64,000 bases of DNA from an uncultured Eubacteriales bacterium (GTDB taxonomy: Bacteria > Bacillota > Clostridia > Oscillospirales > CAG-272). Made by a program: the position numbers and the translations under genes. Below, piece by piece: positions 4,123-25,020 of this stretch; the first letter of the stretch is position 1, and the number at the start of each line of letters is the position of its first letter. The stretch lies in assembly GCA_948467545.1 (NCBI GenBank), contig CAOKER010000001.1:186001-250000 (forward strand), written 5' to 3'. The notes under the pieces were generated by a model. That model had not been told where the DNA came from. It was given only the letters and a program-made list of their open reading frames with translations, and did not search any database.

Positions 4123-4809
4123 TTATTCAGAGTCTGCATCTTCAGATTCTTTTTTCATGGCGATGGCATTTTCGGGTGAAAAAATATTTGAAGCTGCGTC
4201 TGATATGTTATCGGTTTGAATATCATCGGAATTGAATTCTGTATATTCGTCAAGGTTTCTTTGCAACATATTGTATTGTCTGTCAATTTCAGCAAGCTGA
4301 GACAAAATCTTTTTGTCGTCGGATACGTCCTTTATTTCGGGTGCTATCTCCGGATTTTTCATTTTATCGTAGGTTTCTGAGTAATTTGCCTCTTTTTTTA
4401 CTTCACTGGTTATTGCAGTGTCAGCCGAATTTGCGGCTGTTTCAGCAACTTCTTCCTGGACAATTTCGGAATTCTGTATATCGTCGATTTCGTTAAAGTC
4501 ATCGAGGGAGGGAAGGGGCTCGGCATTTTCCGGTTTCAGAAGCGGAGACTGAGCGGGAATATGCTTTAGCGGATCGTACAAGAATTTTTTACAGCTGTAT
4601 TCGCATGCTACAACGCCTTTGCGGTCGCAAAGCATCGTATCAGAGTCATAAAGCTTGTGTGCGTTTATACAAAATCTGCATATTTCCGGCAGCTCGTGTT
4701 CCGAATGTTTTTTTCTTTTTGATTTTTTGTATTTCGGACGGTAGACAACCGGCTTTGCTTCAATGCTGGTCGGTACATATTTGCTTTCGCCTTTTTTATG
4801 AAAAGCCAT
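4123..4809 (-). CDS. hypothetical protein with N-terminal Cys cluster
   Basis: 228 residues, function not recognised. A basic N-terminus (KKSKRKK, ~28-35) is followed by a cysteine cluster, C44-x2-C47-x13-C61-x7-C69-x3-C73, that could bind a metal such as zinc. The rest is acidic, low in hydrophobics and probably disordered, with a short coiled-coil-like stretch near 170-195 (ILSQLAEIDRQYNMLQRNL). No signal peptide or membrane helix. The ATG at 4809 has GGAGGT upstream. The gene stands alone between ylbJ and smpB. Confidence 0.7.
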   Translation of the reverse strand: MAFHKKGESKYVPTSIEAKPVVYRPKYKKSKRKKHSEHELPEICRFCINAHKLYDSDTMLCDRKGVVACEYSCKKFLYDPLKHIPAQSPLLKPENAEPLPSLDDFNEIDDIQNSEIVQEEVAETAANSADTAITSEVKKEANYSETYDKMKNPEIAPEIKDVSDDKKILSQLAEIDRQYNMLQRNLDEYTEFNSDDIQTDNISDAASNIFSPENAIAMKKESEDADSE

Positions 4810-5007
4810 AGAGCTTTTACCTCCGTGTTTTTCAAACTTTACGCCGCAATGACCTGTATAGGATAAATGCAGACATACTTCAATACATTATACTACATAA
4901 TTAACTGTTTTTCCATACTTTTTTGTATTTTTACAAATTTATTTGATTGCTGGATATTGTTATATGTTTTGATCCTGTCTGAAATATAAAATTCAAAAGA
5001 ACTTTTT

Positions 5008-6126
5008 TTATATCTTTCCTGACAATTTCATAAGAATGAGTGTCAGAATCGGACAGACAAGAGCCGTCGTTATTTTACCTTTATAATAATATTTCATTGT
5101 GATTCCGCTTCCTTCCGTTACGGAAGACGTCTGAAAATGAACGGACAAACCTGACCATCCGACCGCGGCGGCAGTTATAAGGGCTGCGGGAAGGGTGCCG
5201 AGAGACGAAGCTTCTTTGATACCGCAGGTAATTTCGGCAAAACAGGTTATCAGAGAAATAACTGCCGAAGATTTGCAGCCGAGAGACAAAAGGGCGCTTT
5301 TGAGCAGAGATGTGACGACGCCGAAAAAGGTTACAAAAGCGCATATCGACAGCATATTTATTGCCGAGGTGCCTACCGCTTTCGTAAAGATAACTGAAAA
5401 GCTTACGGGTGGATTATTTACTTCCGAATCTGACTTGTAAATTTTTAATTTTTTGTCCGTCAAAGGATTTTGTTCAGGTTTAATGGCATCCGCAGAATTT
5501 TGCATTTCCTTCGGTTTTGTTTTAACCGCTGTCCTTTTCATCAGAATACCGCATAATATGGAGGTCAGCAGGAGAGCAATCCAAATTATAATTCCGAGTG
5601 TTTTGTCAGACAGTATTCCTGCTCCGATACCTGTTATCAGAAAAGCGGGACCGGTGTTATTACAAAAGGCGAGAGCGCGTGATGCGCTGTCCTTATCCGT
5701 CTGTCCTGACATAACGAGATTTGCCGCTGCCGCCGCGCCCGCCGGATACCCGGTGAGATTTCCGATCAGAAACAGTATGGCGCAGCTTCTGTCGATTCCG
5801 AAAAGTTTTTCAAAGGGAACGGATATAAGCTTTCCTATAACGTTGCCTGCGCCGGAGGAGGTGATCAGTGCGGAGAGGACGAGAAACGGAAACAATGACG
5901 GTATTACAGTAAATGCGCAGAGCCGAAGCGACTCCGAGGCTGCGTACGACGCGGTTTCCGAGAATATAACGAGAATCGGAAAAGCTGAGATTATCAGGAT
6001 ACATTTAATTATGTATGCAAACGAGTTTTGGTTTTCATTCCGGCATTTTCTTTTAGAGGGCGCAAGATGACCTGAAACTCTTGTATATGCTTTACCTGCC
6101 GAAATACTGTTATTAATTTGACTCAC
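5008..6126 (-). CDS. ylbJ: sporulation integral membrane protein YlbJ
   Basis: 372-residue polytopic membrane protein of the YlbJ family, which contains the nucleoside-recognition (Gate) fold. In Bacillus subtilis ylbJ is under sigma-E and needed for heat-resistant spores; the substrate is unknown. The conserved core is seen as LCAFTVIPSLFPFLVLSAL, then GNLTGYPAGA and LAFCNNTGPAFL. About eight hydrophobic helices can be traced. The GTG at 6126 has no good ribosome binding site, so the first ~30 polar residues may not be translated. It diverges from yqfC. Confidence 0.9.
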   Translation of the reverse strand: MSQINNSISAGKAYTRVSGHLAPSKRKCRNENQNSFAYIIKCILIISAFPILVIFSETASYAASESLRLCAFTVIPSLFPFLVLSALITSSGAGNVIGKLISVPFEKLFGIDRSCAILFLIGNLTGYPAGAAAAANLVMSGQTDKDSASRALAFCNNTGPAFLITGIGAGILSDKTLGIIIWIALLLTSILCGILMKRTAVKTKPKEMQNSADAIKPEQNPLTDKKLKIYKSDSEVNNPPVSFSVIFTKAVGTSAINMLSICAFVTFFGVVTSLLKSALLSLGCKSSAVISLITCFAEITCGIKEASSLGTLPAALITAAAVGWSGLSVHFQTSSVTEGSGITMKYYYKGKITTALVCPILTLILMKLSGKI

Positions 6127-13951: not shown

Positions 13952-14008
13952 GAGCGTACTTGCGGATTGTATGGCTTATAGAAAACGAAAAATTGCCATG
14001 GATGAAAA

Positions 14009-15208
14009 ATGAAGAAAAAACATTGTCGGGACGATGCCGGAAAGCGCCGGAATTTGCAGAGCGGAACAAGTAAAGATATTAATACGGATGAACGTGACAT
14101 GAAATCTCTTAAAAGCTGGTTTTACGGAAGTAAAATTTTGCTTACATGCGCGCTTCTTCTCTCCATTGTCGGAATCATTACGATTTTTATTACGGTTTCT
14201 GTCTCTGAGCTTTCCGCCTGCAGAGGTATTTCAAAGGTTTTTGTTCAGCTCGGAGCCGTGGCTGCAGGCGCGGTGCTTATGCTTTTGATCGCCCGGATGC
14301 CGCTTGGCTTTGTATATAAAAGACTGTGGTGGTGCTGTCTGATACTGTCGGTATCGCTTCTTTTGCTTACCTTAAAATACGGGACGGGACCGTCGGGTAC
14401 AAAAAGCTGGCTGACGGTTCCGGGAATTTCACTGCAGCTTCAGACCTCCGAATTTGTAAAGCTTCTTTTTATAATTTCTTTTACCGGACATTTGAAGCTG
14501 GTGGGGGAAAAAATAAATCATCCGCTTGCGGTTTTTTCGCTGGTTGTGCATGTCGGCGTAATAGCGGGAATCGTAGTGCTTCAGCATGATCTCGGGAGCG
14601 CCCTTGTGTACTTATTTATAGCGGTTTTCATGTGTTTTTCCGCAGGGCTGAGTGGATGGTATTTTGCAGGCGGGGGAGCGCTTTTTCTCGCAGGATTTCC
14701 GCTTATATGGCGGTTTCTTACCGAATATCAGAAGCAGAGAATCATAGTGGGATTGAATCCGGAGCTTGATCCGCTCGGATACGGATACCAGGTAATTCTG
14801 AGCAAAAATGCGATAATATCAGGTTTTCCATGGGGTTCAAAGTGGCTTTCTCTTACATATTCGCCCAAAACTCCGGCGGCTCATACTGATATGATTTTCT
14901 CTGTTATGGCGGAGCAATTCGGAATCATTGCGATTTTGATTGTATTTATTCTTTATGCAGTTATTGTTTTCAGATTGCTGAAAATGGGCAGACGGTGCGG
15001 ACGTACGGGCGCCGAAATCTGCGCGGGGGTGGCGGCAATATTTATTGTTCAGGCCACGGAAAATATAGGAATGTGTATGGGACTTTTGCCTGTTATCGGC
15101 GTGACGCTGCCGTTTTTAAGCTATGGCGGATCGTCTGTGCTGAGTCTTTTTATCGGTCTCGGAATTGCTGTTTCGGCCGCGCGGCGCGATACGCCGGTCT
15201 GCTATTAA
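14009..15208 (+). CDS. SEDS peptidoglycan glycosyltransferase (RodA/FtsW/SpoVE family)
   Basis: 399-residue polytopic protein of the SEDS family, which polymerises glycan strands of peptidoglycan from lipid II with a class B PBP partner. About ten membrane helices are visible, along with the family segments KSWLTVPGISLQLQTSEFVKL, VVLQHDLGSALVY and GVTLPFLSYGGSS. Which branch (elongation, division or spore cortex) cannot be told by eye, and no PBP is adjacent. The first ~30 residues are hydrophilic; a start at 14099 (MKSLKSW) is possible and matches family length better. Confidence 0.9.
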   Translation: MKKKHCRDDAGKRRNLQSGTSKDINTDERDMKSLKSWFYGSKILLTCALLLSIVGIITIFITVSVSELSACRGISKVFVQLGAVAAGAVLMLLIARMPLGFVYKRLWWCCLILSVSLLLLTLKYGTGPSGTKSWLTVPGISLQLQTSEFVKLLFIISFTGHLKLVGEKINHPLAVFSLVVHVGVIAGIVVLQHDLGSALVYLFIAVFMCFSAGLSGWYFAGGGALFLAGFPLIWRFLTEYQKQRIIVGLNPELDPLGYGYQVILSKNAIISGFPWGSKWLSLTYSPKTPAAHTDMIFSVMAEQFGIIAILIVFILYAVIVFRLLKMGRRCGRTGAEICAGVAAIFIVQATENIGMCMGLLPVIGVTLPFLSYGGSSVLSLFIGLGIAVSAARRDTPVCY

Positions 15209-15263
15209 AATATCGTTAAGGTTATTCATATGGGGCTGTCAAAAAGTCCCGAAATATAAAGAT

Positions 15264-15296
15264 ACCCGATGGAGATGAACTATCGGGTTTTTTGTT
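15264..15296 (+). terminator. intrinsic terminator after SEDS gene
   Basis: Stem ACCCGAT/ATCGGGT with an 11-base loop, followed by TTTTTTG and another T9. Located 55 bp after the SEDS stop codon; it isolates the recombinase gene from upstream transcription. Confidence 0.85.
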
Positions 15297-15471
15297 TTTT
15301 TTTTCGAAAAATCTGAAAATCTACTGTTATCTTTCGGCTTTCATACTTAAAAAAGTGTGAAAGTCTTTTTGTTTTTTTCAGATAAACTGATAAAATAATT
15401 AATAAAAGGGAAAATTAAATTCAGAAACATAAATAACATTATAAGACATGAACGAAAGGTCGTATAAAAAT

Positions 15472-16314
15472 ATGAAAAGGACAAAAATAACACAGAAAAC
15501 AGTAACCGAATATGCAGTATATCTGAGAAACGAAGAAAAAAGCCGTGCAACCATAGAAAAGTATCTGCGCGACACGGCGCATTTCGCCCGTTATGCGGAT
15601 GGAAAAAGGATAAGCAAGGAGCTGACTTTAGAATATAAGAACGTGCTTAAGAACAGCTACGCGCCGGCAAGTGCGAATTCCATGATAGCGTCTCTTAACT
15701 CGTTTTTGAGGTTTATGGGGCTTCACGGCTGTTGTGTAAAACAGTTCAGAGTACAGCGTGAGGCGTACCGTTCGGCAGACAAGGAATTGACTAGGGATGA
15801 GTACGTTCGTCTCGTTAAGGCGGCAAAAGCGCAGGGCAGCGGAAGACTGGAGCTTCTGATAGAGACTATCTGCGGTACAGGAATCAGAGTAAGCGAGCTG
15901 CGGTTTATCACGGCGGAAGCTGCGGAAAAGGGAGAAGCAAGGGTAATGAACAAAGGGAAAAGCCGAACGGTATTACTGCCCGCCAAGCTGCGAAATAAGC
16001 TGCTGTGTTACGCCTCCGAAAGGCATATATCATCGGGACCGCTGTTTGTTACACGCTCCGGCAGACCTTTAAACCGGTGCAACGTCTGGAGGGAGATGAA
16101 AGGGCTGTGCAGACGTGCGGGCGTAAAAGAGGAAAAAGTGTTTCCGCATAACCTCAGGCATTTGTTTGCACGGACGTTTTACGGAATTGAACGGGATATA
16201 GCAAAGCTGGCGGACCTGTTGGGACACAGCAGCATAAATACTACGAGAATTTATGTGGCTACTACCGGCGCGGAGCACCGCAGAAGGCTTGATGAAATGA
16301 GTTTGATTATCTGA
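15472..16314 (+). CDS. tyrosine recombinase (probable DNA invertase of the adjacent segment)
   Basis: 280-residue XerC/D-like tyrosine recombinase. The N-terminal SAM-like core-binding domain covers ~10-100 and the catalytic domain ~105-275. All catalytic residues are visible: R139 (TGIRVSEL), Lys near 163 (NKGKSRTV), H226 and R229 (HNLRH), H252 (LLGHSS) and the nucleophile Y261 (TRIYV). I prefer the ATG at 15472, 13 bases after AAAGG; an ATG at 15448 has no binding site. It is bounded by terminators on both sides. The gene ends 52 bp before a perfect 22-bp inverted-repeat pair with the form of recombination sites, so local inversion is its likely job; there is no phage or transposon gene nearby. 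Confidence 0.93.
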   Translation: MKRTKITQKTVTEYAVYLRNEEKSRATIEKYLRDTAHFARYADGKRISKELTLEYKNVLKNSYAPASANSMIASLNSFLRFMGLHGCCVKQFRVQREAYRSADKELTRDEYVRLVKAAKAQGSGRLELLIETICGTGIRVSELRFITAEAAEKGEARVMNKGKSRTVLLPAKLRNKLLCYASERHISSGPLFVTRSGRPLNRCNVWREMKGLCRRAGVKEEKVFPHNLRHLFARTFYGIERDIAKLADLLGHSSINTTRIYVATTGAEHRRRLDEMSLII

Positions 16315-16319
16315 TAGAT

Positions 16320-16346
16320 AAAAAAAGCCGACGCCAAGGCGCCGGC
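16320..16346 (-). terminator. leftward intrinsic terminator facing the invertible promoter
   Basis: Hairpin GCCG-n-CGCC / GGCG-n-CGGC (16327-16346) followed, on the minus strand only, by seven Ts (16326-16320). On the plus strand no T-run follows. It therefore stops transcripts coming from the invertible segment before they run antisense into the recombinase gene. Confidence 0.8.
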
Positions 16347-16365
16347 AGGTATCAACAATTTAATA

Positions 16366-16387
16366 ACATAATGTGCGTTATGTGACA
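16366..16387 (+). repeat. left inverted repeat (IRL) of the invertible segment
   Basis: 22 bp, identical to the reverse complement of 16715-16736. Its first 18 bases have the form ACATAA-TGTGCG-TTATGT: two 6-bp inverted arms around a 6-bp spacer, followed by GACA. This is the layout of a tyrosine-recombinase crossover site. Confidence 0.93.
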
Positions 16388-16430
16388 AACATCCGCGGAA
16401 GAAATCAAATAAAAAGATTTCCTTTACCAT

Positions 16431-16459
16431 ATAATAGCATAAAAAGTGCCGTAAGTCAA
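16431..16459 (-). promoter_or_regulatory. invertible promoter, in leftward orientation
   Basis: Minus strand TTGACT (16459-16454), a 17-bp spacer, TATTAT (16436-16431), with TG one base before the -10 (extended -10). Transcription would start near 16424 and run left through IRL into the terminator at 16346-16320, giving an RNA of about 100 nt in this orientation. Confidence 0.85.
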
Positions 16460-16714
16460 CATATAAAATTGATTTTAAATAAAATTTGTATTTTATTACA
16501 TAAATTTGGGCGCAATAAAAAGACATTCCTGATTATTAAAAAAAAAAATAAGAAAGGTTTTGTTTCTGCGCCCCGAAAACAAAATATCGTTACAATAATT
16601 TTCCGAAATTTATGACATAGGACAAAGATTCGGCCTGAAAACGGTATTCGGTGTGATACATTTTTCCGTTTTATGCGCCGATTTATCGGAAAAGTATAGA
16701 GTGACATTTTTAAG

Positions 16715-16736
16715 TGTCACATAACGCACATTATGT
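16715..16736 (-). repeat. right inverted repeat (IRR) of the invertible segment
   Basis: Exact reverse complement of IRL over 22 bp; the identity stops on both sides, so the boundary is sharp. The sipW start is 230 bp further right. Confidence 0.93.
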
Positions 16737-16871
16737 ATCTATGCTATACATGATATAAAGGCGCGTAACGCTTAAAAATCGAAAAATGCTGCGGAGCGGG
16801 TATGCTTATGCTTTATGTGCGAAGAACCGTACGGATACGTGAGGAGAGTACAAGCCTCAGCTTTGTATTTT

Positions 16872-16885
16872 CGGAGCATGCTCCG
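16872..16885. promoter_or_regulatory. perfect 14-bp palindrome in the sipW leader
   Basis: CGGAGCATGCTCCG, in the 230-bp leader between IRR and sipW, followed by two near-identical direct repeats (GCATTTCGGCGTA and, 16 bases on, GCATTTTGGCGTA). It could be a protein-binding operator or an RNA hairpin; function unknown. Confidence 0.4.
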
Positions 16886-16965
16886 CATTTCGGCGTAAGC
16901 TCTGCATTTTGGCGTATCCACTGTCAGCAAAGCTGTGAGTACATATGAAAGGTACGGTCATAAAA

Positions 16966-17511
16966 ATGAGCCTCAGTCCGAAAACAAAAAATATTCTTTC
17001 AACGGCAGGCAATTTTGTTTCATCCTTTATAACGGCGGCGGTTGCGATTACAGCGGCGATCTTTGTTATTATAAAGCTGCTGGGCTGGAATATGTTTTCG
17101 GTAGACAGTCCGAGCATGGCTCCGCTCTATCCTGTCGGAACTCTGGTAATCGTGCGGGATGCCGAGCCGGAAGAAATCGAGGCGGGAGATGTGATTACAT
17201 ACGTGCTCAACGAGGACGGAGTTCTTGTAACTCACCGTGTTGTAAAGGTCAACGCGGATAACCGCACTTTCATTACAAAGGGAGACGCCAATAATACGGA
17301 GGATTCGCCCGTACTGTGGGAAAACACGGTTGGCAAAGTCGTGTTCGGAATTCCGGCGCTCGGAACTCCCGTGCGGTATATTACTGCGAAGGAAAACCGT
17401 CCGGCTGTAATCGCTGTAATTGCCGTCATTTTTGTATTTTCTCTTGCGTGGGATATATTCGAGCGGAGGAAAAGCGGAAGAGGCAGACGAGTTCCGCGGC
17501 GGGGACGGTAA
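16966..17511 (+). CDS. sipW: SipW-type (ER-like) signal peptidase I
   Basis: 181-residue type I signal peptidase of the SipW branch, which uses a Ser-His dyad instead of the bacterial Ser-Lys. Ser50 lies in DSPSMAP, His90 in VTHRVV, and Asp107 in TKGDANN. One N-terminal membrane helix (~15-38) and a C-terminal one (~146-164), then a basic tail. In Bacillus SipW matures TasA and TapA; here five genes with SipW-like signal regions follow directly. The ATG at 16966 sits behind the recurrent GAAAGGTACGGTCAT motif; an ATG at 16945 lies before it. First gene of the cluster downstream of the invertible promoter. Confidence 0.92.
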   Translation: MSLSPKTKNILSTAGNFVSSFITAAVAITAAIFVIIKLLGWNMFSVDSPSMAPLYPVGTLVIVRDAEPEEIEAGDVITYVLNEDGVLVTHRVVKVNADNRTFITKGDANNTEDSPVLWENTVGKVVFGIPALGTPVRYITAKENRPAVIAVIAVIFVFSLAWDIFERRKSGRGRRVPRRGR

Positions 17512-17518
17512 AGGTACA

Positions 17519-17617
17519 GAATCTGAGCTGAATCCGTGTGGAATCTGAGCGGAATCTGAGCGGAATCTGAGTGGAATCCGAGTGGAATCCGAGCTGAATC
17601 CGAGCTGAATCCGAGCG
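17519..17617. repeat. 11-bp tandem repeat, nine units
   Basis: Nine head-to-tail copies of GAATCnGAGNN (for example GAATCTGAGCG, GAATCCGAGCT) begin at the stop codon of sipW and end about 100 bp before the next start. The unit length is not a multiple of three and no plus-strand gene spans it, so it is an intercistronic element. Confidence 0.95.
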
Positions 17618-17720
17618 AAATATCGGCAGATGTACAAGTTTGTTTTTTATACCGCGGGCGATAAATATGTACCGTTGCCCGGCGGTGTGAAAATATATAT
17701 TGAAAAAGGAGGTAATAAAA

Positions 17721-18359
17721 TTGAGAAAAAGCCAAAAGCTATTGGTTACCAGCCTGCTGCTTGCAGTGATAGCCGTACTAACCGTTTCGCCTACGCTGTC
17801 GTGGCTGTCCTCAACGAGCGCTCCCGTAATCAATACCTTTGCGGGCGGAGTTATTTCCGTAAAGCTTGACGAGGCACTTGTCGGCACGGACGGAAAGGAG
17901 ATAACCGGCGAAGGAGCGCAGCGTGTGAACTCCAACAACTACAAGTACACGGCAGGCGCGGTTCTTGACAAGGATCCGACCCCCACAGTGCTCAAGGGAA
18001 GCGAGGAATGCTATGTATTCCTGCTTGTGGATAACGGACTTGACGACAAGTTTGCTATAAACTACGACACGTCGTCATGGCTGAAGGCTGCGCAGGCGGA
18101 CGGGAAAACCGTATATGTCTACAGCAGCCGCGTAAACGCTTCGGAGTCGGCGGAGGACATTGTACTCAAACCGATATTCACAACGGTAACAGTTTCCGAG
18201 AACCTGACGGCCGAGGATATATCATCTCTCGGTGAAAGAAAGCTCTCTGTAACGGCGTTTGCTGTGCAGGCGGCTTCGATTGACTCTAAAACGGCAATCG
18301 ACTTAGCGATCGGGCAGCTGCTTCCGGGGAGCACGGCGGAATATCCGAGCGTCGGTTAA
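17721..18359 (+). CDS. SipW-dependent surface protein, TasA/CalY-like
   Basis: About 212 residues. A hydrophobic signal helix is followed by SPTLSWLSSTSAPVINTFAGG, matching the SipW-type signal pattern (T-x-AWF/S-x then N-x-F-x-x-G) and a beta-rich mature part like camelysin/TasA. AAAGGAGG (17705-17712) lies eight bases before an in-frame TTG at 17721, which I take as the start; an ATG at 17700 precedes the binding site. It would be exported by Sec, cut by SipW and probably assembled at the cell surface. Sequence diverges from the three large paralogues downstream, so it may be the fibre's minor or anchor subunit (inference). Confidence 0.8.
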   Translation: MRKSQKLLVTSLLLAVIAVLTVSPTLSWLSSTSAPVINTFAGGVISVKLDEALVGTDGKEITGEGAQRVNSNNYKYTAGAVLDKDPTPTVLKGSEECYVFLLVDNGLDDKFAINYDTSSWLKAAQADGKTVYVYSSRVNASESAEDIVLKPIFTTVTVSENLTAEDISSLGERKLSVTAFAVQAASIDSKTAIDLAIGQLLPGSTAEYPSVG

Positions 18360-18389
18360 AAAGGTTAAATCTGAGAGGAGGTATACGGC

Positions 18390-18731
18390 ATGGCTGAAAA
18401 CAGGGGTTTAACACCCGCGCTCAAACAGTTCTTTCTGCTTGTTCTCTGTGTCAGTTTGGCGGCATGTTTGTGCTCACAGCCGCTGAAAAGCACCGTTTCA
18501 TATATTTCCTCACGTTCGGAAACCTGCGTGAATACCTTTACGGGTGAAATGACGGAGCCTGTACCGTCCGAGCCCGGACGGGATGAACCGGAGCCTGAGA
18601 ATCCGGGAAATTCCGAATCGCCTCCCACGGGCGAATACATTCGTTCGGAATGGTATGTATTCGGTATGCTTATCGGTCTTGCCGGCTTTGCCGCAACCGC
18701 TAAACTGGGGAGCAGGAAACCTCGATTTTGA
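18390..18731 (+). CDS. small surface protein with SipW-like signal and sortase-like C-terminus
   Basis: 113 residues. An N-terminal hydrophobic helix (~13-29) leads into STVSYISSRSETCVNTFTGE, a SipW-type pattern. An acidic Pro-rich spacer follows (~54-76). The C-terminus has SPPTGE (77-82), a hydrophobic helix (~88-104) and a basic tail (KLGSRKPRF), the layout of a sortase sorting signal; SPPTG fits the (S/P)PxTG motif known for Clostridioides difficile SrtB. There is no sortase gene in this window. GAGGAGG precedes the ATG. It could be the wall anchor or base subunit of the fibre (inference). Alternatively it is a simple bitopic membrane protein. Confidence 0.7.
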   Translation: MAENRGLTPALKQFFLLVLCVSLAACLCSQPLKSTVSYISSRSETCVNTFTGEMTEPVPSEPGRDEPEPENPGNSESPPTGEYIRSEWYVFGMLIGLAGFAATAKLGSRKPRF

Positions 18732-18765
18732 TTTTAAAATTATAAGCTGTAACAATATGAAAAAG

Positions 18766-18792
18766 AAAAACGTACTTGCAAAGTACGTTTTT
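18766..18792 (+). terminator. terminator or attenuator before the first large paralogue
   Basis: Stem AAAAACGTACT / AGTACGTTTTT (11 bp, loop TGCAA) ending in T5, 24 bases before the ATG at 18816. It lies inside the cluster, so it probably reduces rather than ends transcription into the three large paralogues, or separates two transcription units. Confidence 0.65.
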
Positions 18793-18815
18793 CGAGAGGA
18801 AAGGATGATTGTCTA

Positions 18816-20327
18816 ATGAAGCTGAACAGGAAAAATGTTCTCACAACAAGTCTTGCCGCGGCGCTCGCGGCGGCAATGGTTGTGGGGGGGGGTACGATTG
18901 CATACCTTCAAGGAGAAACAAGCGACATTGTAAACGAGTTTAAAACTAACAAGGTTATGGTAGATCTGACCGAAACAACAGGGGATTACAATATTATTCC
19001 GGGAACCGTTGAGAAAAAGGATCCTAAGGTTACTGTGGACAATACCGTGGATGCTTATGTGTTTGTGGAAGTGACCGATACCACACAAAATCTTGTAGAT
19101 TATACAATCGCGGATGGTTGGACTGAGCTTGCGGATTTTGGAACGGAAACTGTGAAAGTATATTACCGTGAAGTTAAAGGCGATGCAGACGTCAATGATA
19201 AGAGCTTTTCGGTTTTGCAGAACGATGAGGTAAGATACGACGCGGCGCTGGAAAACAAAGATATGTTCGTAAAAAATACCACGAGTCTCAAAAGCTCTGT
19301 TAAGCTTAGCTTCAAGGCCTATGCTATTCAGCAGAAACCGTTTGAGAGCGTTGAGGCGGCTTATGTTGCGCAGCCCAAAAGCGCCGCGGACGCTAAAGAA
19401 CTTGGAAGAGCTCTTTCTTTAGGCTCGCCTGTAGCTTTAAGCGGCGATATACAGATTGGCAGATCCTTTTTAGAGAAGAATCTTAACTCAAACAGTCAGA
19501 TCGATCTTAACGGAAAGACTTTAACAATTGCAATGGCTTCAGATGTGATTGATATAGCAGAGGGCAGACAGCTTACAATAAAAAACGGAACGATTGAATC
19601 AAATGGTAAAACTTATGCTTTTGACATACATTCCGGCAGTTCGCTTACATTTGAAAACGTTACCTACAATACTAAGGCGGAATTTGGGGTCGGAGGCGTT
19701 GCGCAGTATGCGACCGATACGACATTCAATATTATTGATTCAGACGTAACTGTGGAAGGCTGTATGATTATTTCTACGAACGCGTCCAAAGATTCGGCGG
19801 GGAACGTATCCTCCGGTGCAAAGATCAATGTTAAGAATTCCAAGCTTACAATTACCGAGAATACGGGTGACTGCGTAGGAATTCTTTTGAATGTTCCCGG
19901 TACTCTTAATATTGAAAATTCAACGATCACAGCCGACAGACAGGCCGTTGTTGTACGAGGAGGAGACGCCGTTATTAAGGACAGCAGTCTTGTTTGTACA
20001 GGTAAATTCCTTGAGACTGATGAACATAAGGAAACAGATAATGGATATACAACCTTGCCAGCCGGAGAAACATGGGGTTCGGGCAATGAGGTTCCCGCAA
20101 GAACGCTTGTTGTGGGCAACATCTCAAGCTCCGGGGCATATGCATATCCGGCAAGCTGTACGCTTGTAAATACTACGCTTACATCTGCGGCAGAAATTAA
20201 GCCGGTGCTTGCGGCGGCTTGCAACGGTTATCCTACTACCGTTACCGGCGTTGCTGATGAAAATATCGATATAATAAAGGCCGCTGGTACAGATACTGTT
20301 AATATAATTAACAGCTTCGATAATTAA
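18816..20327 (+). CDS. large SipW-dependent surface protein A (beta-helix type)
   Basis: 503 residues. Signal region MKLNRKNVLTT...GGGTIAYLQG with the SipW-type TIAYL motif, then an N-terminal domain (~30-175) shared with the next two genes (NEFKTNKVMVDLTE, IIPGT, DPKVTVDNTVDAYVFVEV). From ~180 a repetitive beta-helix-like region follows (IDLNGKTLTIA, LTIKNGTIES, INVKNSKLTI, LNIENSTITA). Codons for V-G-G-G are written by nine Gs (18884-18892), in frame. No membrane anchor or sorting signal at the C-terminus. Probable fibre or adhesin subunit; the sequence shows no enzyme motif. Confidence 0.85.
   Translation: MKLNRKNVLTTSLAAALAAAMVVGGGTIAYLQGETSDIVNEFKTNKVMVDLTETTGDYNIIPGTVEKKDPKVTVDNTVDAYVFVEVTDTTQNLVDYTIADGWTELADFGTETVKVYYREVKGDADVNDKSFSVLQNDEVRYDAALENKDMFVKNTTSLKSSVKLSFKAYAIQQKPFESVEAAYVAQPKSAADAKELGRALSLGSPVALSGDIQIGRSFLEKNLNSNSQIDLNGKTLTIAMASDVIDIAEGRQLTIKNGTIESNGKTYAFDIHSGSSLTFENVTYNTKAEFGVGGVAQYATDTTFNIIDSDVTVEGCMIISTNASKDSAGNVSSGAKINVKNSKLTITENTGDCVGILLNVPGTLNIENSTITADRQAVVVRGGDAVIKDSSLVCTGKFLETDEHKETDNGYTTLPAGETWGSGNEVPARTLVVGNISSSGAYAYPASCTLVNTTLTSAAEIKPVLAAACNGYPTTVTGVADENIDIIKAAGTDTVNIINSFDN
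18884..18892 (+). repeat. poly-G tract (9 G), in frame
   Basis: Nine consecutive Gs within the signal-peptide codons of protein A. Length keeps the frame. It is the counterpart of the 11-G tract in the next paralogue, so it is a potential slippage site. Confidence 0.9.
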
Positions 20328-20477
20328 GCGGTATTAGGACTGCCTTTTCGGTACAGCAATGCGGCAGAATCTAAGACGACCGCGGCCGCTGCTTAAGGGA
20401 AATTTTCTCCTCACGAAGTCTAATCTGACGCCGAATTGATGGATTTTATAACGATTAATTTGAACAGGAGTAGAAAA

Positions 20478-21744
20478 ATGAAAGAGTCAATAAAAAAGAA
20501 CGTCCTTACAACAAGTCTTGCCGCGGCGCTTGCGGCGGCAATGGCTGTGTGGGGGGGGGGGTACGATTGCGTACCTTCAAGGAGAAACAGGTGACGTTGT
20601 AAACGAGTTCAAGACAAACAAGGTTTTGGTTGAACTTAACGAAACGGGAACAGATGAGAACGGAGTTAATAATTCGTATAACATAATTCCGGGAACCGAG
20701 CAGTCAAAAGATCCTAAGGTTACCGTGGACAACACGGTTGACGCTTACGTATTCGTAGAGGTAACCGATAAAACGGACGGTCTGATTCGATACGAAATCG
20801 CCGGCGGCTGGATTGCTCTTACGGGTTATGAGGATAAAAATCCGAAGGTCTATTACCGCGAGGTGGCGGGCGACGCCGCTGTAAAGGTGTTCGATATTCT
20901 TGAGGAAAACAAGGTTATATATGACGCGGCGCTGGAAAACAGTGATATGCTCAAGAACAATAAGCTTAAGAGCGGCATTGCCCTGAGCTTCAAGGCAAGT
21001 GCGGTGCAGAAGGCGGCTTTTGCCGACGCGGCGGCAGCTTATGCGGTAAAGAGCAACGGCAGTGATGTCAGAGCAGCGCTCGAAAACGGAAACAGTGTAA
21101 TTCTCGGCACTGATATTTTAGGCGTCAACACCGCTGAAGAAAGCAATTTCTATGTTTATCAAAGCAAATCAAAACCCCGAATTGAAGCCACAATCGACCT
21201 TAATTCAAAGACTGTTGCCGCCGCAGAGGGGACCGACGCCGATAAAAGTGGTGTTGAATATGTTATTAAAGCCGCGCTGAATGTCACGCTAACCGTAGAC
21301 GGCAACGGAACGGTAATCGGCGGTTCAGGAGCGCCTGCAAATAAAATCAATGCCGCGGTAGAGGCTTCAAACGGAGCAAAGGTTATTATCAATTCAGGTA
21401 CTTTTACCACAGGTCCTGACGCAAGCGGCGGTCCGAATCCGGTAGTTTATGTCCGCCGCACAAATACCAAACAATCAGGTGCGGAGGTTGAAATCAACGG
21501 AGGATTTTTCTACAACAGCACCTGCGATGAAAACGGCAACTACTGGCTTCTTAATATCGAGGATGACGACGTCGGCGTCTGCAAAATTATCGTAAAAGGC
21601 GGTACTTTTGTGAACTTTGATCCTGCCGATAATATGTCCGACGGTGAACACACAAACTATGTGGCGGACGGATACAAGTCTGTTGCGGAGAAACAGGCGA
21701 ACGGAGATATCTATTACACTGTTGTTCCGATTGTTTCGGAATAA
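20478..21744 (+). pseudogene. large SipW-dependent surface protein B, out of frame at a poly-G tract (phase-off)
   Basis: Starts at ATG 20478 (AGGAG seven bases upstream) with MKESIKKNVLTTSLAAALAA, then reaches an 11-G tract (20551-20561). As written the frame shifts there and stops at about 20602, giving a peptide of some 40 residues. Dropping one G restores AVWGGGTIAYLQGETGD and a continuous protein of about 421 residues ending at 21744. That protein has the shared N-terminal domain (IIPGTEQSKDPKVTVDN) and a different beta-helix tail (VEINGGFFYNS, IIVKGGTFVNF). The downstream frame is clean over 390 codons, so it is under selection; phase variation by slippage is more likely than decay. A homopolymer sequencing error is the main alternative. 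Confidence 0.85.
20551..20561 (+). repeat. poly-G tract (11 G), frame-breaking
   Basis: Eleven Gs directly after GCTGTGT in the signal-peptide codons. Ten or thirteen Gs would place ATG 20478 in frame with the mature protein; eleven does not. Confidence 0.9.
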
Positions 21745-21888
21745 GCGTTTAACCCAAAGCAATTGTTCCACGTTCAACGCAGTTTACAGATGCGGTGCAA
21801 TCCTGTCGTCACAGAACCTTATGCCTTATGTGCTGCTATGCGTATTGTTGAAAATTATTAGATTTAAGAAAAGAAAGGAACAAATGTG

Positions 21889-23862
21889 ATGAAAACGAAT
21901 ATGAAAAAGAACGTTATTACTACCGGTCTTGCCGTGACGCTCGCGGCGGCTATGGTAATCGGCGGCGGAACGGTCGCATATCTTCAGGGACAAACCAAGG
22001 ATGTTGTAAATGAATTTAAGACAAACAAGGTAATGGTTAGTCTTACCGAGAGCGGTGCCGATCCGAACACCGGAGTTAATAATACATATGAAATAATTCC
22101 GGGAACGGAGGCCGCAAAGGATCCTAAAGTGACGGTTGACAATACGGTTGCCGCGTATGTCTATGTAAGGGTGACAGACGATACGCAGGAGCTTGTAGGA
22201 TACGAAATCGCCGACGACTGGAATCTTCTCGAAGGCTTCACCGATGTGTATTACCGCGAAGTTCCCGCTAAGGCTTCGGCTTCCGACGCGGACGCTGAGT
22301 TTGCGGTTCTTAAGGACAACAAGGTCTATTATGACGCCGCTCTTGAAAACAGCGATATGCTGAGTGCGGACGGAAATCTTAAAGACGGCATTAAACTGAG
22401 CTTTAAGGCGTTTGCAATTCAGAAGACGCCGTTTGAAGATCCCATGCTCGCTTACGGCTATGCCGCAGGCACAGCGGTTGCAAACAAAACAGAGATCGAA
22501 AATGCCGTAAAGACTGCAAATGAAGTCGGAGAGCCTGCGGTTCTTCTCATAAACGGGGGGGTTGATTTGAATGAGACTCTCACAATTCGTGCGGACAACG
22601 GTCTTACGCTCGTCGGAGACGGAATGGCGGCCGTGACAGGAAAGCCTATTCATTTGTACGTAAAGGAAGAGATTGTAATCTCCGGAATTGATTTTAACAA
22701 CGGTACTTTAAGGGACGATGTTAACGGACCTCAAGAATCCAGCATTTATGTATCTAATAAAGACGAAATAAAGAATCTGGTTATCGAGAACTGCAGCTTT
22801 ACCGAATCGGGATGGGACTGCATACAGCTGACCAACCCGAATATCGAAAGTATAGCGATTCGCGGCAATTCCTTTATAAATACGGATAAAAGTAATCCGG
22901 GAAAGAGGTATATCCACCTTGAATTGAGAGACGCCAATGGACAATATACCGCATCGGATACCAAGCTTGAAATTACCGGAAATACTTTTACCAATGTTTC
23001 TGAGAGTTATTGTGATGACAGCGCAGTTACAGTATGCGGTTTCAAATTTGAAAATATGACGATTGAAAGAAACGCGGTGCTCGGCGACGGTGCAGACAAA
23101 CTTACAACAGCCATTATTTGGATTTGCAACGGAACAAATTTTAATGAGCTTTACTCTACAGAACAGATCAAAGCGGCATTCGTGTATGCTTCGGCGGCTG
23201 TATCGACCGAGGAAGAAATGAATGAGGCTATTGCAAATGTAAAGGATGGGGATGTTATCGTTCTGACAGACGATATCGCAGTAACTGCTCCCTTAAATTT
23301 CAGCGGCAATTCTGACGGGACATCCGAAACGCCCGTAAAAGCTAATCTGAATCTGAACGGAAATATAATTTTCGCAGAGACGCCGATTTGGAATGACAGT
23401 CAAACTTCATCTGACTGGTCTCTTATCAGTGTAGGCAGCGGAGTTGAACTTACAATCGACGGAAGCGGATCATTGGAGGCTATTCCGGAAGATTCATATG
23501 CGGTCGACGTTTGGGGAGGCGGCAAGCTTACCATAAACGGAGGAACATATATAGGAAACATACACGCGGTGTATGTACTTGAAGGCGAGCTTGTTGTAAA
23601 CGGCGGAACCTTCAGCGTTCAGCAGAAATATTCAACGGATAAGCCGGATGAGTTTGTTTTGAACTGCTATGACGCAAATTATAAGGACGAAACCGCGAAA
23701 ATTACCGTAAACGGAGGCAGCTTTGCCGGATTCAATCCTTCTGACTGTAAAGCGGAGGGAGTAGGCACAAACTTTACGGCGGAGGGCTGCACAGTTTCTG
23801 CGGCAACAGGTGCAGACGGCATTACATGGTACACAGTTACGCCTAATGCTGCGGCGGAATAA
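21889..23862 (+). CDS. large SipW-dependent surface protein C (beta-helix type)
   Basis: 657 residues, the longest of three paralogues. Signal region with GGGTVAYLQGQT, here encoded by mixed Gly codons (GGCGGCGGA) rather than a G run, so not slippage-prone. Shared N-terminal domain to ~180, then two beta-helix-like blocks: ~205-400 (LTIRADNGLTLVGDG, IVISGIDFNNGT, LVIENCSFTES) and ~425-640 (LTIDGSGSLEAI, KLTINGGTYIG, LVVNGGTFSV, ITVNGGSFAGF). AGAAAGGA precedes the ATG at 21889. Last gene of the cluster, followed by a strong terminator. Confidence 0.85.
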   Translation: MKTNMKKNVITTGLAVTLAAAMVIGGGTVAYLQGQTKDVVNEFKTNKVMVSLTESGADPNTGVNNTYEIIPGTEAAKDPKVTVDNTVAAYVYVRVTDDTQELVGYEIADDWNLLEGFTDVYYREVPAKASASDADAEFAVLKDNKVYYDAALENSDMLSADGNLKDGIKLSFKAFAIQKTPFEDPMLAYGYAAGTAVANKTEIENAVKTANEVGEPAVLLINGGVDLNETLTIRADNGLTLVGDGMAAVTGKPIHLYVKEEIVISGIDFNNGTLRDDVNGPQESSIYVSNKDEIKNLVIENCSFTESGWDCIQLTNPNIESIAIRGNSFINTDKSNPGKRYIHLELRDANGQYTASDTKLEITGNTFTNVSESYCDDSAVTVCGFKFENMTIERNAVLGDGADKLTTAIIWICNGTNFNELYSTEQIKAAFVYASAAVSTEEEMNEAIANVKDGDVIVLTDDIAVTAPLNFSGNSDGTSETPVKANLNLNGNIIFAETPIWNDSQTSSDWSLISVGSGVELTIDGSGSLEAIPEDSYAVDVWGGGKLTINGGTYIGNIHAVYVLEGELVVNGGTFSVQQKYSTDKPDEFVLNCYDANYKDETAKITVNGGSFAGFNPSDCKAEGVGTNFTAEGCTVSAATGADGITWYTVTPNAAAE

Positions 23863-23937
23863 AAAATCTTCGGTCAAAGCGGGAGACTTCCGCGTTAAAC
23901 GCAGTAAATCTTTGAAAAAACAATAAAAATGCAAAAA

Positions 23938-23971
23938 AGTCGATCTCATTTTTCGGGATCGGCTTTTTTTT
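23938..23971 (+). terminator. terminator of the surface-protein cluster
   Basis: Ten-pair stem AGTCGATCTC / GGGATCGGCT (two G-T wobbles), 7-base loop, then eight Ts. It lies 75 bp after the stop codon of protein C. Confidence 0.9.
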
Positions 23972-24160
23972 GCGCGTTCAAGGTGATATTCGGCAGTAAT
24001 CGGTTTTTACGAAATCCGACGGTTGTTTGTTCTCTGCCAATGTTTGTTAAATTGTCCGAAGTGCATATTTTCCCGCCCGCTTTGTCAATACTTTTATCAG
24101 TGATGAAAGTAAAAATTCATCCTCAATATCTGTATCGGCATCAAGCGGAGGAAGTCTCGG

Positions 24161-24952
24161 ATGTATCATAACAAAGTGGTTATCTGCGGAGTAAATACCG
24201 CAAAGCTAAAGACCTTGACCGATGAAGAAAAAAAAGACCTTCTTGTAAAAGCCAAAAGCGGGGATAAGGAGGCAAGGCAAAAGCTTGTTTACGGAAATCT
24301 TCGCCTTGTTCTGTCAATTATACAGCGATTTACATGCAGAAGCGACAATCTTGACGACCTTTTTCAAGTCGGCTGCGTGGGACTGATGAAGGCGATTGAT
24401 AACTTTAACACGGAGCTTGACGTAAAATTCTCGACATACGCTGTTCCTATGGTAATAGGTGAAGTCAGAAGATATCTTCGTGACAACAATTCGGTACGAG
24501 TGAGCCGATCTGTGCGCGATCTTGCATATAAGGCGCTTACGGCGAGGGAACAGCTTTCTTCAAAAATGCAGCATGAACCGACGATCGCGGAAATAACAAA
24601 GCAGCTTTCGGAAAACGGTATAACGTGTACCGAGCATGATGTCAGCACTGCCCTTGAAGCGATTGTCGAACCGATTTCGCTTTACGATCCGGTTTACGGC
24701 GACGGCAGCGGCGATTCGCTGTATGTTATGGACCAGATAAGCGACAATGATAACACCGATGAAAGCTGGATTGAAAATATCGCGCTTCGGGAGGCAATGA
24801 AAAAGCTGTCCGAACGCGAACGGTCTATTATAGGAATGCGCTTTTTTTCCGGAAAAACTCAGATGGAAATAGCGTCGGAAATCGGTATTTCACAGGCGCA
24901 GGTTTCAAGACTCGAAAAGGGAGCTCTTGAACGTATGAGAAGGGAATTATAA
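24161..24952 (+). CDS. sigG: RNA polymerase sporulation sigma factor SigG
   Basis: 263-residue late forespore sigma factor. The N-terminal NKVVICGVNTAKL segment matches SigG (the region used for recognition by its inhibitors) and separates it from SigF. Region 2 is seen in DDLFQVGCVGLMKAIDNFN and VKFSTYAVPMVIGEVRRYLRDNN, region 4 in KTQMEIASEIGISQAQVSRLEKGAL. GCGGAGGAAG precedes the ATG. Not next to sigE/spoIIGA here; it stands alone between the surface cluster and the antiporter. Residue features, not position, support the call. Confidence 0.95.
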   Translation: MYHNKVVICGVNTAKLKTLTDEEKKDLLVKAKSGDKEARQKLVYGNLRLVLSIIQRFTCRSDNLDDLFQVGCVGLMKAIDNFNTELDVKFSTYAVPMVIGEVRRYLRDNNSVRVSRSVRDLAYKALTAREQLSSKMQHEPTIAEITKQLSENGITCTEHDVSTALEAIVEPISLYDPVYGDGSGDSLYVMDQISDNDNTDESWIENIALREAMKKLSERERSIIGMRFFSGKTQMEIASEIGISQAQVSRLEKGALERMRREL

Positions 24953-24991
24953 TTACGTCTCTTTTTGCCGTGACTATTCATTTTTAAAGGG

Positions 24992-25020
24992 TTGACAAAT
25001 TTGTATAAAGGCGGTATAAT
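24992..25020 (+). promoter_or_regulatory. sigma-A promoter of the fluoride-riboswitch transcript
   Basis: TTGACA (24992-24997), 17-bp spacer, TATAAT (25015-25020): perfect consensus at both boxes. Confidence 0.93.

Follow-up and report, generated by a model that had tools for sequence, protein, structure and literature searches.

Between a tyrosine recombinase gene and a cluster encoding a SipW-type signal peptidase and TasA-family proteins lies a short segment bounded by inverted repeats, which raises the question of whether it is an invertible promoter that switches the cluster on and off. The segment is part of a stretch of 64,000 nucleotides (the window), belonging to an assembled genome of 2.47 Mb in 30 contigs (97.7% complete), which was searched as a whole. 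Read along the plus strand, the order is recombinase, leftward terminator, left site, segment, right site, leader and sipW. Two small predicted SipW substrates and three TasA-family genes, the last ending at 23862, follow behind sipW, and then a sigma-G gene. The features are as follows:

15448-16314, plus strand: tyrosine recombinase, XerA/XerC-like, predicted invertase (PF00589, 92.5 bits)
16327-16346, minus strand: leftward intrinsic terminator in the gap between switch and recombinase (GC stem, T tail, -14.3 kcal/mol)
16366-16387, plus strand: left recombination site, core ACATAA-TGTGCG-TTATGT
16366-16736, strand-neutral: predicted invertible promoter segment, 371 bp
16431-16459, minus strand: promoter TTGACT-17-TATTAT with extended -10 (TG), 10/12, facing the recombinase
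16715-16736, minus strand: right recombination site, perfect complement of the left arm
16737-16944, plus strand: leader ahead of sipW, between the right repeat and sipW
16945-17511, plus strand: sipW, SipW-type signal peptidase I
17700-18359, plus strand: predicted SipW substrate with TasA-like export signal, judged by eye (TLSWLSSTSAPVINTFAGG)
18390-18731, plus strand: small predicted SipW substrate with C-terminal membrane anchor, judged by eye (NF053819, 23.4 bits, below the cut-off of 47)
18816-20327, plus strand: tasA1, TasA-family protein 1, 42% identical over 99% to P0056
18884-18892, plus strand: G9 tract in the export-signal codons of tasA1, in frame
20478-21744, plus strand: tasA2, TasA-family protein 2, export signal (ATG 20478) and mature part in different frames
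20551-20561, plus strand: G11 tract in the export-signal codons of tasA2, out of frame, the frame breaking there
21886-23862, plus strand: tasA3, TasA-family protein 3, 39% identical to tasA1, export signal without a G-run (GGCGGCGGA)

The proposed switch and the cluster in the window

A sequence-only reading of this DNA had described perfect 22-bp inverted repeats around a gene-free segment, and both descriptions were borne out. The 22-nt arms at 16366-16387 and 16715-16736 are 100% complementary, and each consists of ACATAA, 6 nt and TTATGT, that is, 6-bp arms around a 6-bp spacer. The repeats being perfect, the crossover centres of the two sites are identical. Elsewhere in the assembled genome, no further copy of the 22-nt arms was found with up to three mismatches. 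The only open reading frames in the 371-bp segment are overlapping, mechanically called ones of at most 91 aa. The ends of a mobile element were ruled out as an explanation of the repeats, with no cargo and no gene inside the segment, as was a genome-wide regulon of the recombinase, given two exact sites in its own genome (G000). At the Rfam gathering score no known RNA element was matched across 14000-25000, and the leader at 16737-16944 likewise gave no Rfam match.

The recombinase to the left of the segment, a stand-alone enzyme, had been described as having all catalytic residues. Its open reading frame ends 51 bp before the left repeat, and R147, K171, H234, R237, H260 and Y269, which we take to be the catalytic positions, are invariant in 19 of 19 aligned sequences. 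XerA_Arch is the closest NCBIfam model (136.9 bits, below the cut-off of 220), and the profile of the recombinase family matched the XerC-like PDB entry 4a8e (E 3.6e-35). Two tyrosine-type DNA invertase models, presumably those of the FimB/FimE type, gave 29.3 and 24.5 bits against cut-offs of 221 and 222. A locked switch, in which the repeats would be left over from a system that has stopped flipping in this genome, would accord with the finding that the assembled genome holds no other-orientation copy of the segment. However, the two 22-bp repeats match without a single difference and the intact recombinase retains its catalytic residues, making such a relic very unlikely.

A single strong leftward promoter had been proposed for the segment. 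The TTGACT-17-TATTAT element with its TG extension is indeed present, but it does not stand alone, as a second leftward 10/12 site was found at 16720-16693. Across 15000-18500 there are 5 promoter-like sites, as compared with a mean of 4.8 (sd 2.3) in shuffles, and the score alone therefore does not make the assignment credible. What renders the leftward promoter credible is its family-typical place: its -10 stops 65 bp short of the border in front of it, and the commonest distances in the switch family (described below) are 65-67 bp. In the assembled orientation it faces the recombinase and, as had been stated, points away from sipW. The promoter would then fire to the left and transcription would stop at the terminator (16346-16327), halting before an antisense run into the recombinase gene, with the cluster very likely OFF. 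No terminator was found inside the segment of the window, so that read-through from the recombinase gene into sipW is possible in the OFF state. Inversion would move the -10 to 16666-16671, at a distance of 65 bp from the right border, from where the promoter would transcribe sipW and probably the genes behind it too.

The ON-state leader predicted by this arrangement is long (~270 nt), and the genes behind sipW are 30-190 bp apart, which leaves possible room for promoters. Both points would suit an alternative in which the segment inverts, yet the cluster has its own inner regulated promoter and the switch drives a short leader RNA only. The plus strand offers little to such a promoter, however: no sigma-70-like promoter was detected between the right repeat and sipW (16737-16944), and the single plus-strand 9/12 promoter-like site in 16700-24200 falls within tasA1 (19739). 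Among the matches listed, moreover, many relatives have their first gene less than 100 bp from the right site, and we regard an independent inner promoter as improbable.

The genes behind the segment had been read as sipW and its substrates, which profile searches and relatives uphold. The sipW product exceeds the cut-off of TIGR02228, the ER/archaeal-type signal peptidase I model (101.4 versus 51.85 bits), and falls short of the Bacillus SipW equivalog NF046067 (65.6 bits against a cut-off of 190). On these scores it is classed as SipW-type and not as the Bacillus equivalog, and it is the sole SipW-type match in the genome at E 0.001. The tasA1 product has a TasA-like N-terminal part, with the rest predicted to be beta-solenoid-like. 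No Pfam match was obtained for the tasA1 product itself, no convincing family match for the product of 17700-18359, and none of the window proteins matched PF12389 or the SipW-dependent signal models; TIGR04090 was matched below its cut-off only. The predicted TasA-family assignment is instead made through relatives (42-47% identity): P0056, the relative of tasA1, bears the name TasA family protein, PF12389 exceeded its cut-off in P0056 and in P0087, and P0141, 47% identical to the tasA2 product, is named SipW-dependent-type signal peptide-containing protein. The predicted structure of tasA1 was poor (mean pLDDT 56.6), and the fold search with it returned no match under E 0.001, the TasA fibre 8aur appearing at E 0.13 only; no conclusion therefore rests on the tasA1 structure. 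Tandem repeats of 11 bp (GAATCTGAGCG-like) at 17519-17600 lie between sipW and the gene that follows, and their copy number could vary.

Related recombinase loci and segment orientation

Of 58 other genomes searched, 18 contain close relatives of the recombinase (E < 1e-45; 42-59% identity along most of the sequence). The relatives of the recombinase and of the TasA-family proteins suggest that the bacterium belongs to the Clostridia. A first set of 34 contexts was reduced by 8 in which the recombinase is partial at a contig end (L056-L062, L064). A scan of GTDB species genomes yielded at least 592 recombinase relatives, the best 80 of which were kept; the titles among these best 80 of at least 592 are mostly Clostridia, Oscillospiraceae and Ruminococcus MAGs. 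Together with the 27 loci of the first set (window included) this gave 107 and, minus 2 duplicates, 105 loci. One recombinase (L100) comes from a MAG titled Rhodospirillaceae and has a tree position near the Clostridia copies, perhaps reflecting a mislabelled or mixed bin.

Within this 105-locus set, an inverted repeat within 800 bp 3' of the recombinase was present in 75 of 86 loci with at least 300 bp there (window included), as compared with 1 of 103 in the same test upstream and 0 of 430 in letter shuffles. Two of the 11 loci below the repeat threshold (L033, L076) have 15-bp repeats, and a further two have remote sites, 2.3 kb apart in L042 and ~2.8 kb from the recombinase in L041. Exact matches to ACATAA-N6-TTATGT number 43 in the 19 genomes that have a close recombinase relative (own genome included) and 7 in the other 40; the reversed control has 17 across all 59 genomes. 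Both sites fit this pattern in 73 of 77 segments. On this comparison, the putative switch of the window is a member of a recurring recombinase-plus-inverted-repeat family. Of 68 oriented loci, 50 have a leftward terminator between the recombinase and the left site and 6 a rightward one; within the segments, hairpin terminators are frequent and show no preferred direction (57 and 54 of 68).

When loci are compared with each other, the arms of the sites are 96% identical and the 6-bp centre 44%, with 52 different centres, and the two centres are equal within a locus in 72 of 73 cases; this within-locus match is partly built into the choice of inverted repeats, the between-locus variety is not. 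Strand exchange by a tyrosine recombinase requires the two centres to be equal, which is no requirement for a binding protein, and centres that vary between loci while matching within a locus thus point to recombination sites. Each site is also a dyad, and in several relatives it seems, by eye, to form a leftward terminator, as would be expected if the repeats were binding sites or terminator hairpins rather than recombination sites. That explanation is scarcely credible in view of the behaviour of the centres and of the opposite segment orientations found between species.

Other arrangements of sites were seen in several loci. In L150 (G058:C14:60000-70000), sites of the same kind at ~4500-5100 lie between two divergent, nearly identical gene starts, with the recombinase ~2.8 kb away, so that inversion would redirect the promoter from one target gene to the other. 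The segments of L048 and L134, 3' of the recombinase, hold strong promoter motifs both ways (L048 within 67-bp inverted repeats) and would not be simple on/off switches. The left site occurs twice as a direct repeat in L036, L086 and L150, where deletion besides inversion might be possible. At 8809-11130 of L042 (G005:C81), the sites 2.3 kb apart surround an apparent coding sequence, as though the switch had taken up a gene. In genome G041 (C1, C5, C6, C7, C9, C10, C11, C20, C30) the recombinase is present in seven copies and as fragments, always at a contig end; several have variant sites ACATTAT-ATAATGT and two precede prepilin-like genes, suggesting many such switches in one genome.

We compared the direction of the best promoter across the 77 segments: 48 face left (recombinase), 20 face right (target) and 9 are unclear, with the best promoter above the 95th percentile of shuffles in 57 of 77. 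Promoters scoring at least 19 are placed 30-100 bp from the faced border in 56 of 61 cases (~28% expected at random), comprising 43 of 46 left-facing and 13 of 15 right-facing promoters. Since the border distances are alike both ways, the right-facing promoters look like mirror images of the left-facing ones.

Alignment of the segments themselves led to a similar picture. The 150 pairs with the largest orientation difference were examined without use of the promoters, leaving out five complex segments (L048, L118, L135, L117, L122). Among the 75 that reached z 6, all clearly similar pairs from different species, 43 have the same and 32 the opposite orientation. Promoter direction agrees with alignment orientation in 61 of 63 pairs, both exceptions involving L095, which has a weak promoter call. 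In the case of L072 and L092, the segment matches at 76% over 179 bp on the minus strand and the right flank at 73% over 632 bp on the plus strand, the two additionally sharing a shorter 67-bp forward match. Between L078 and L092 the segment is reversed, with the right-hand gene forward. Segment orientation among relatives, which had been put forward as a check on the earlier reading, hence varies, as compared with members of other genera, families and orders.

In 19 of the 105 loci the contig stops no more than 300 bp from the 3' end of the recombinase, and in 2 of 105 it stops equally close to the 5' end (Fisher p 1e-4); six contigs end 0-5 bp past a site (L034, L070, L086, L132, L133, L136). 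An assembler stops where it meets two continuations, so a mixture of orientations would predict a contig stop at the site. Multiple recombinase copies may also cause such breaks, and 3 of the 19 (L043, L049, L050) are near-copies in G041. Contigs C11 and C12 of G034, which have sites with an equal centre, share short matches only, with no clear segment overlap. Comparison with the 104 other recombinase loci as a whole backs the invertible-promoter reading, and it is very likely, judging from these sequences, that 16366-16736 is a working invertible promoter moved by the adjacent tyrosine recombinase.

Predicted targets of the family and G-tracts in the window

Of the 70 loci, the window among them, that have at least 3 kb of downstream DNA, 18 encode a SipW-type peptidase in the first 8 kb of it; upstream, 2 of 91 do so (Fisher p 1e-5). 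These 18 loci comprise 16 strong and two weak matches (L117, L143; E 1e-17 to 1e-18); a third weak one, L130, has less than 3 kb downstream and stands outside the count. A TasA-type export-signal motif, which misses the window's own proteins, was found downstream in 12 loci, 8 of them with SipW, and upstream as one poor match. By these counts, SipW-type peptidase genes are a recurrent predicted target of the switch family. Among the matches listed, other targets judged by eye include prepilin-like, collagen-like and repeat-rich surface proteins, as well as a von Willebrand A protein, an ABC transporter and a helicase operon. An early target gene resembling a TetR-type regulator (by eye) lies ahead of sipW in L072, L074, L078, L118 and L129.

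On a recombinase tree (104 rows, quick method, L063 left out), the SipW-linked loci are scattered, requiring at least 14 changes for 16 rows. Shuffling of the tree labels gave a mean of 15.2 changes, with 93 of 500 shuffles as low. This scatter fits repeated recruitment or loss. A single recombinase lineage tied to SipW was considered and showed no sign, the labels being hardly more clustered than shuffled ones.

Within the window cluster, two of the predicted fibre genes carry G-tracts in their export signals. The signal of tasA2 has a start with a ribosome-binding site at 20478 in a frame that differs from that of the mature part, and the downstream frame is open. The identical export-signal glycines are encoded in tasA3 as GGCGGCGGA, with no G-run. 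The tasA1 and tasA2 tracts are the only interior runs of at least 9 G or C in the assembled 2.47-Mb genome; a third place with G-runs is the start of contig G000:C20, a low-complexity contig end before phage-like genes. Both tracts are long homopolymers at a frame-deciding place, as is the mark of a slippage (contingency) locus. P0001, encoded on a contig of 180,381 bases (that of the window has 364,070), is identical to tasA1 over 95% and has the N-terminus MWGGTIAYLQ, which, judged from the protein alone, would fit G7 and not G9 if the surrounding bases are equal. P0121, from another contig, fits G11 for tasA2, the same count. L098 has a G9 run (4347-4355) at 396 bp behind its recombinase; no further run of this kind turned up in the ~1.7 Mb of partly overlapping related loci examined.

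Assembled G-tract lengths are error-prone, G-runs being hard to count, and the two runs could be sequencing or assembly errors or simply inert, in which case there would be one switching layer only. This objection concerns the second layer and draws on the paralogy of tasA1 and tasA2, whose tracts may share descent by gene duplication, the run then being one inherited accident, and on P0121, which shows no tasA2 difference. However, these are the sole interior runs of their kind in the genome and both sit at the same codons, the N-terminus of P0001 fits 7 G, and tasA2 keeps its start with ribosome-binding site and its open downstream frame. We consider inert or erroneous runs possible but doubtful, and slippage at G9 and G11 a likely second switching layer, as far as the sequences indicate.

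The explanation we propose is that the recombinase flips the segment at the two ACATAA-N6-TTATGT sites, thereby switching the SipW/TasA-type surface-fibre cluster on and off, and that the G9 of tasA1 and the G11 of tasA2 gain or lose bases by replication slippage, which would switch each protein singly; tasA3, with no such tract, would follow the promoter alone. Taken as a whole, with promoter flipping acting on the cluster and slippage on tasA1 and tasA2, this explanation appears highly probable. We lean slightly towards a wider view in which a portable recombinase-plus-promoter cassette, spread in Clostridia, has repeatedly become attached to SipW/TasA clusters and is here stacked with poly-G slippage into a two-tier combinatorial system. 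Inversion would open or shut the whole export-and-fibre operon, and slippage would choose the fibre proteins exported.

Relation to known systems

If true, surface-fibre formation in such uncultured gut and rumen Clostridia would be a heritable coin toss by DNA inversion, refined here by slippage in single proteins. By the sequence rule of paired ACATAA-N6-TTATGT sites 3' of such a recombinase, metagenomes would reveal where switches lie, how they are set and what they control, and one could test for which surface systems a host or phage favours the on or the off state. Three points go beyond the sequence-only reading: the recurrence of SipW targets across the family, the leftward terminator in front of the recombinase, and the poly-G tracts.

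The fim switch of E. coli, with FimB/FimE, is an invertible promoter beside a tyrosine recombinase that has a surface fibre as its target. The window resembles it in segment size, in the adjoining tyrosine recombinase and in its surface-fibre target, and differs in having no second recombinase alongside and in the weak similarity of its recombinase to the invertase models. In Bacillus, the TapA-SipW-TasA matrix fibres likewise place a SipW-type peptidase beside TasA-family proteins, under the control of SinR, and in Bacillus biofilms TasA-type fibres form the main protein scaffold. We know of no inversion in the control of Bacillus SipW/TasA. The window shares the SipW-type signal peptidase adjoining TasA-family proteins, and differs from Bacillus by its recombinase switch and by the predicted beta-solenoid extensions.

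The RecV switches of Clostridioides difficile (cwpV, flagellar, cmr), compared here by description, are likewise from Clostridia; in them a tyrosine recombinase acts on short invertible segments before surface and motility genes. According to the part of the source available, RecV acts on several switches (PMC5903667), whereas the window recombinase adjoins the only two sites found in its genome. As far as the available text goes, inverton group 139 with invertase group 35 of the hCom2 gut community (2025) is 32 of 33 from Clostridia, with a nearby tyrosine-type recombinase in nearly all; two examples have outer lengths of 255 and 257 bp, calculated from printed coordinates (PMC11892184). Examples of this group shift orientation over culture passages, and one was in reverse more often on mucin-agar carriers (PMC11892184). 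Class, recombinase type and length agree, so that on the portion available group 139 is likely the same family as the ACATAA-N6-TTATGT switches; the words signal peptidase and TasA are absent from the main text of PMC11892184. For the pili of Bifidobacterium breve, slippage at a G10-G11 tract within a surface-structure gene decides the frame and with it expression (PMC9187656). An inversion layer is absent from the available part of that description (PMC9187656), and in the window the tracts lie instead in the export signal of SipW substrates. Among the papers listed from open-licence PMC, no title or abstract describes SipW, TasA or signal peptidase together with inversion, or G-tracts together with TasA or invertible promoters. 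Set against these systems, the mechanism itself is a known one, and the new traits are the recurrent SipW/TasA target and the stacked G-tracts.
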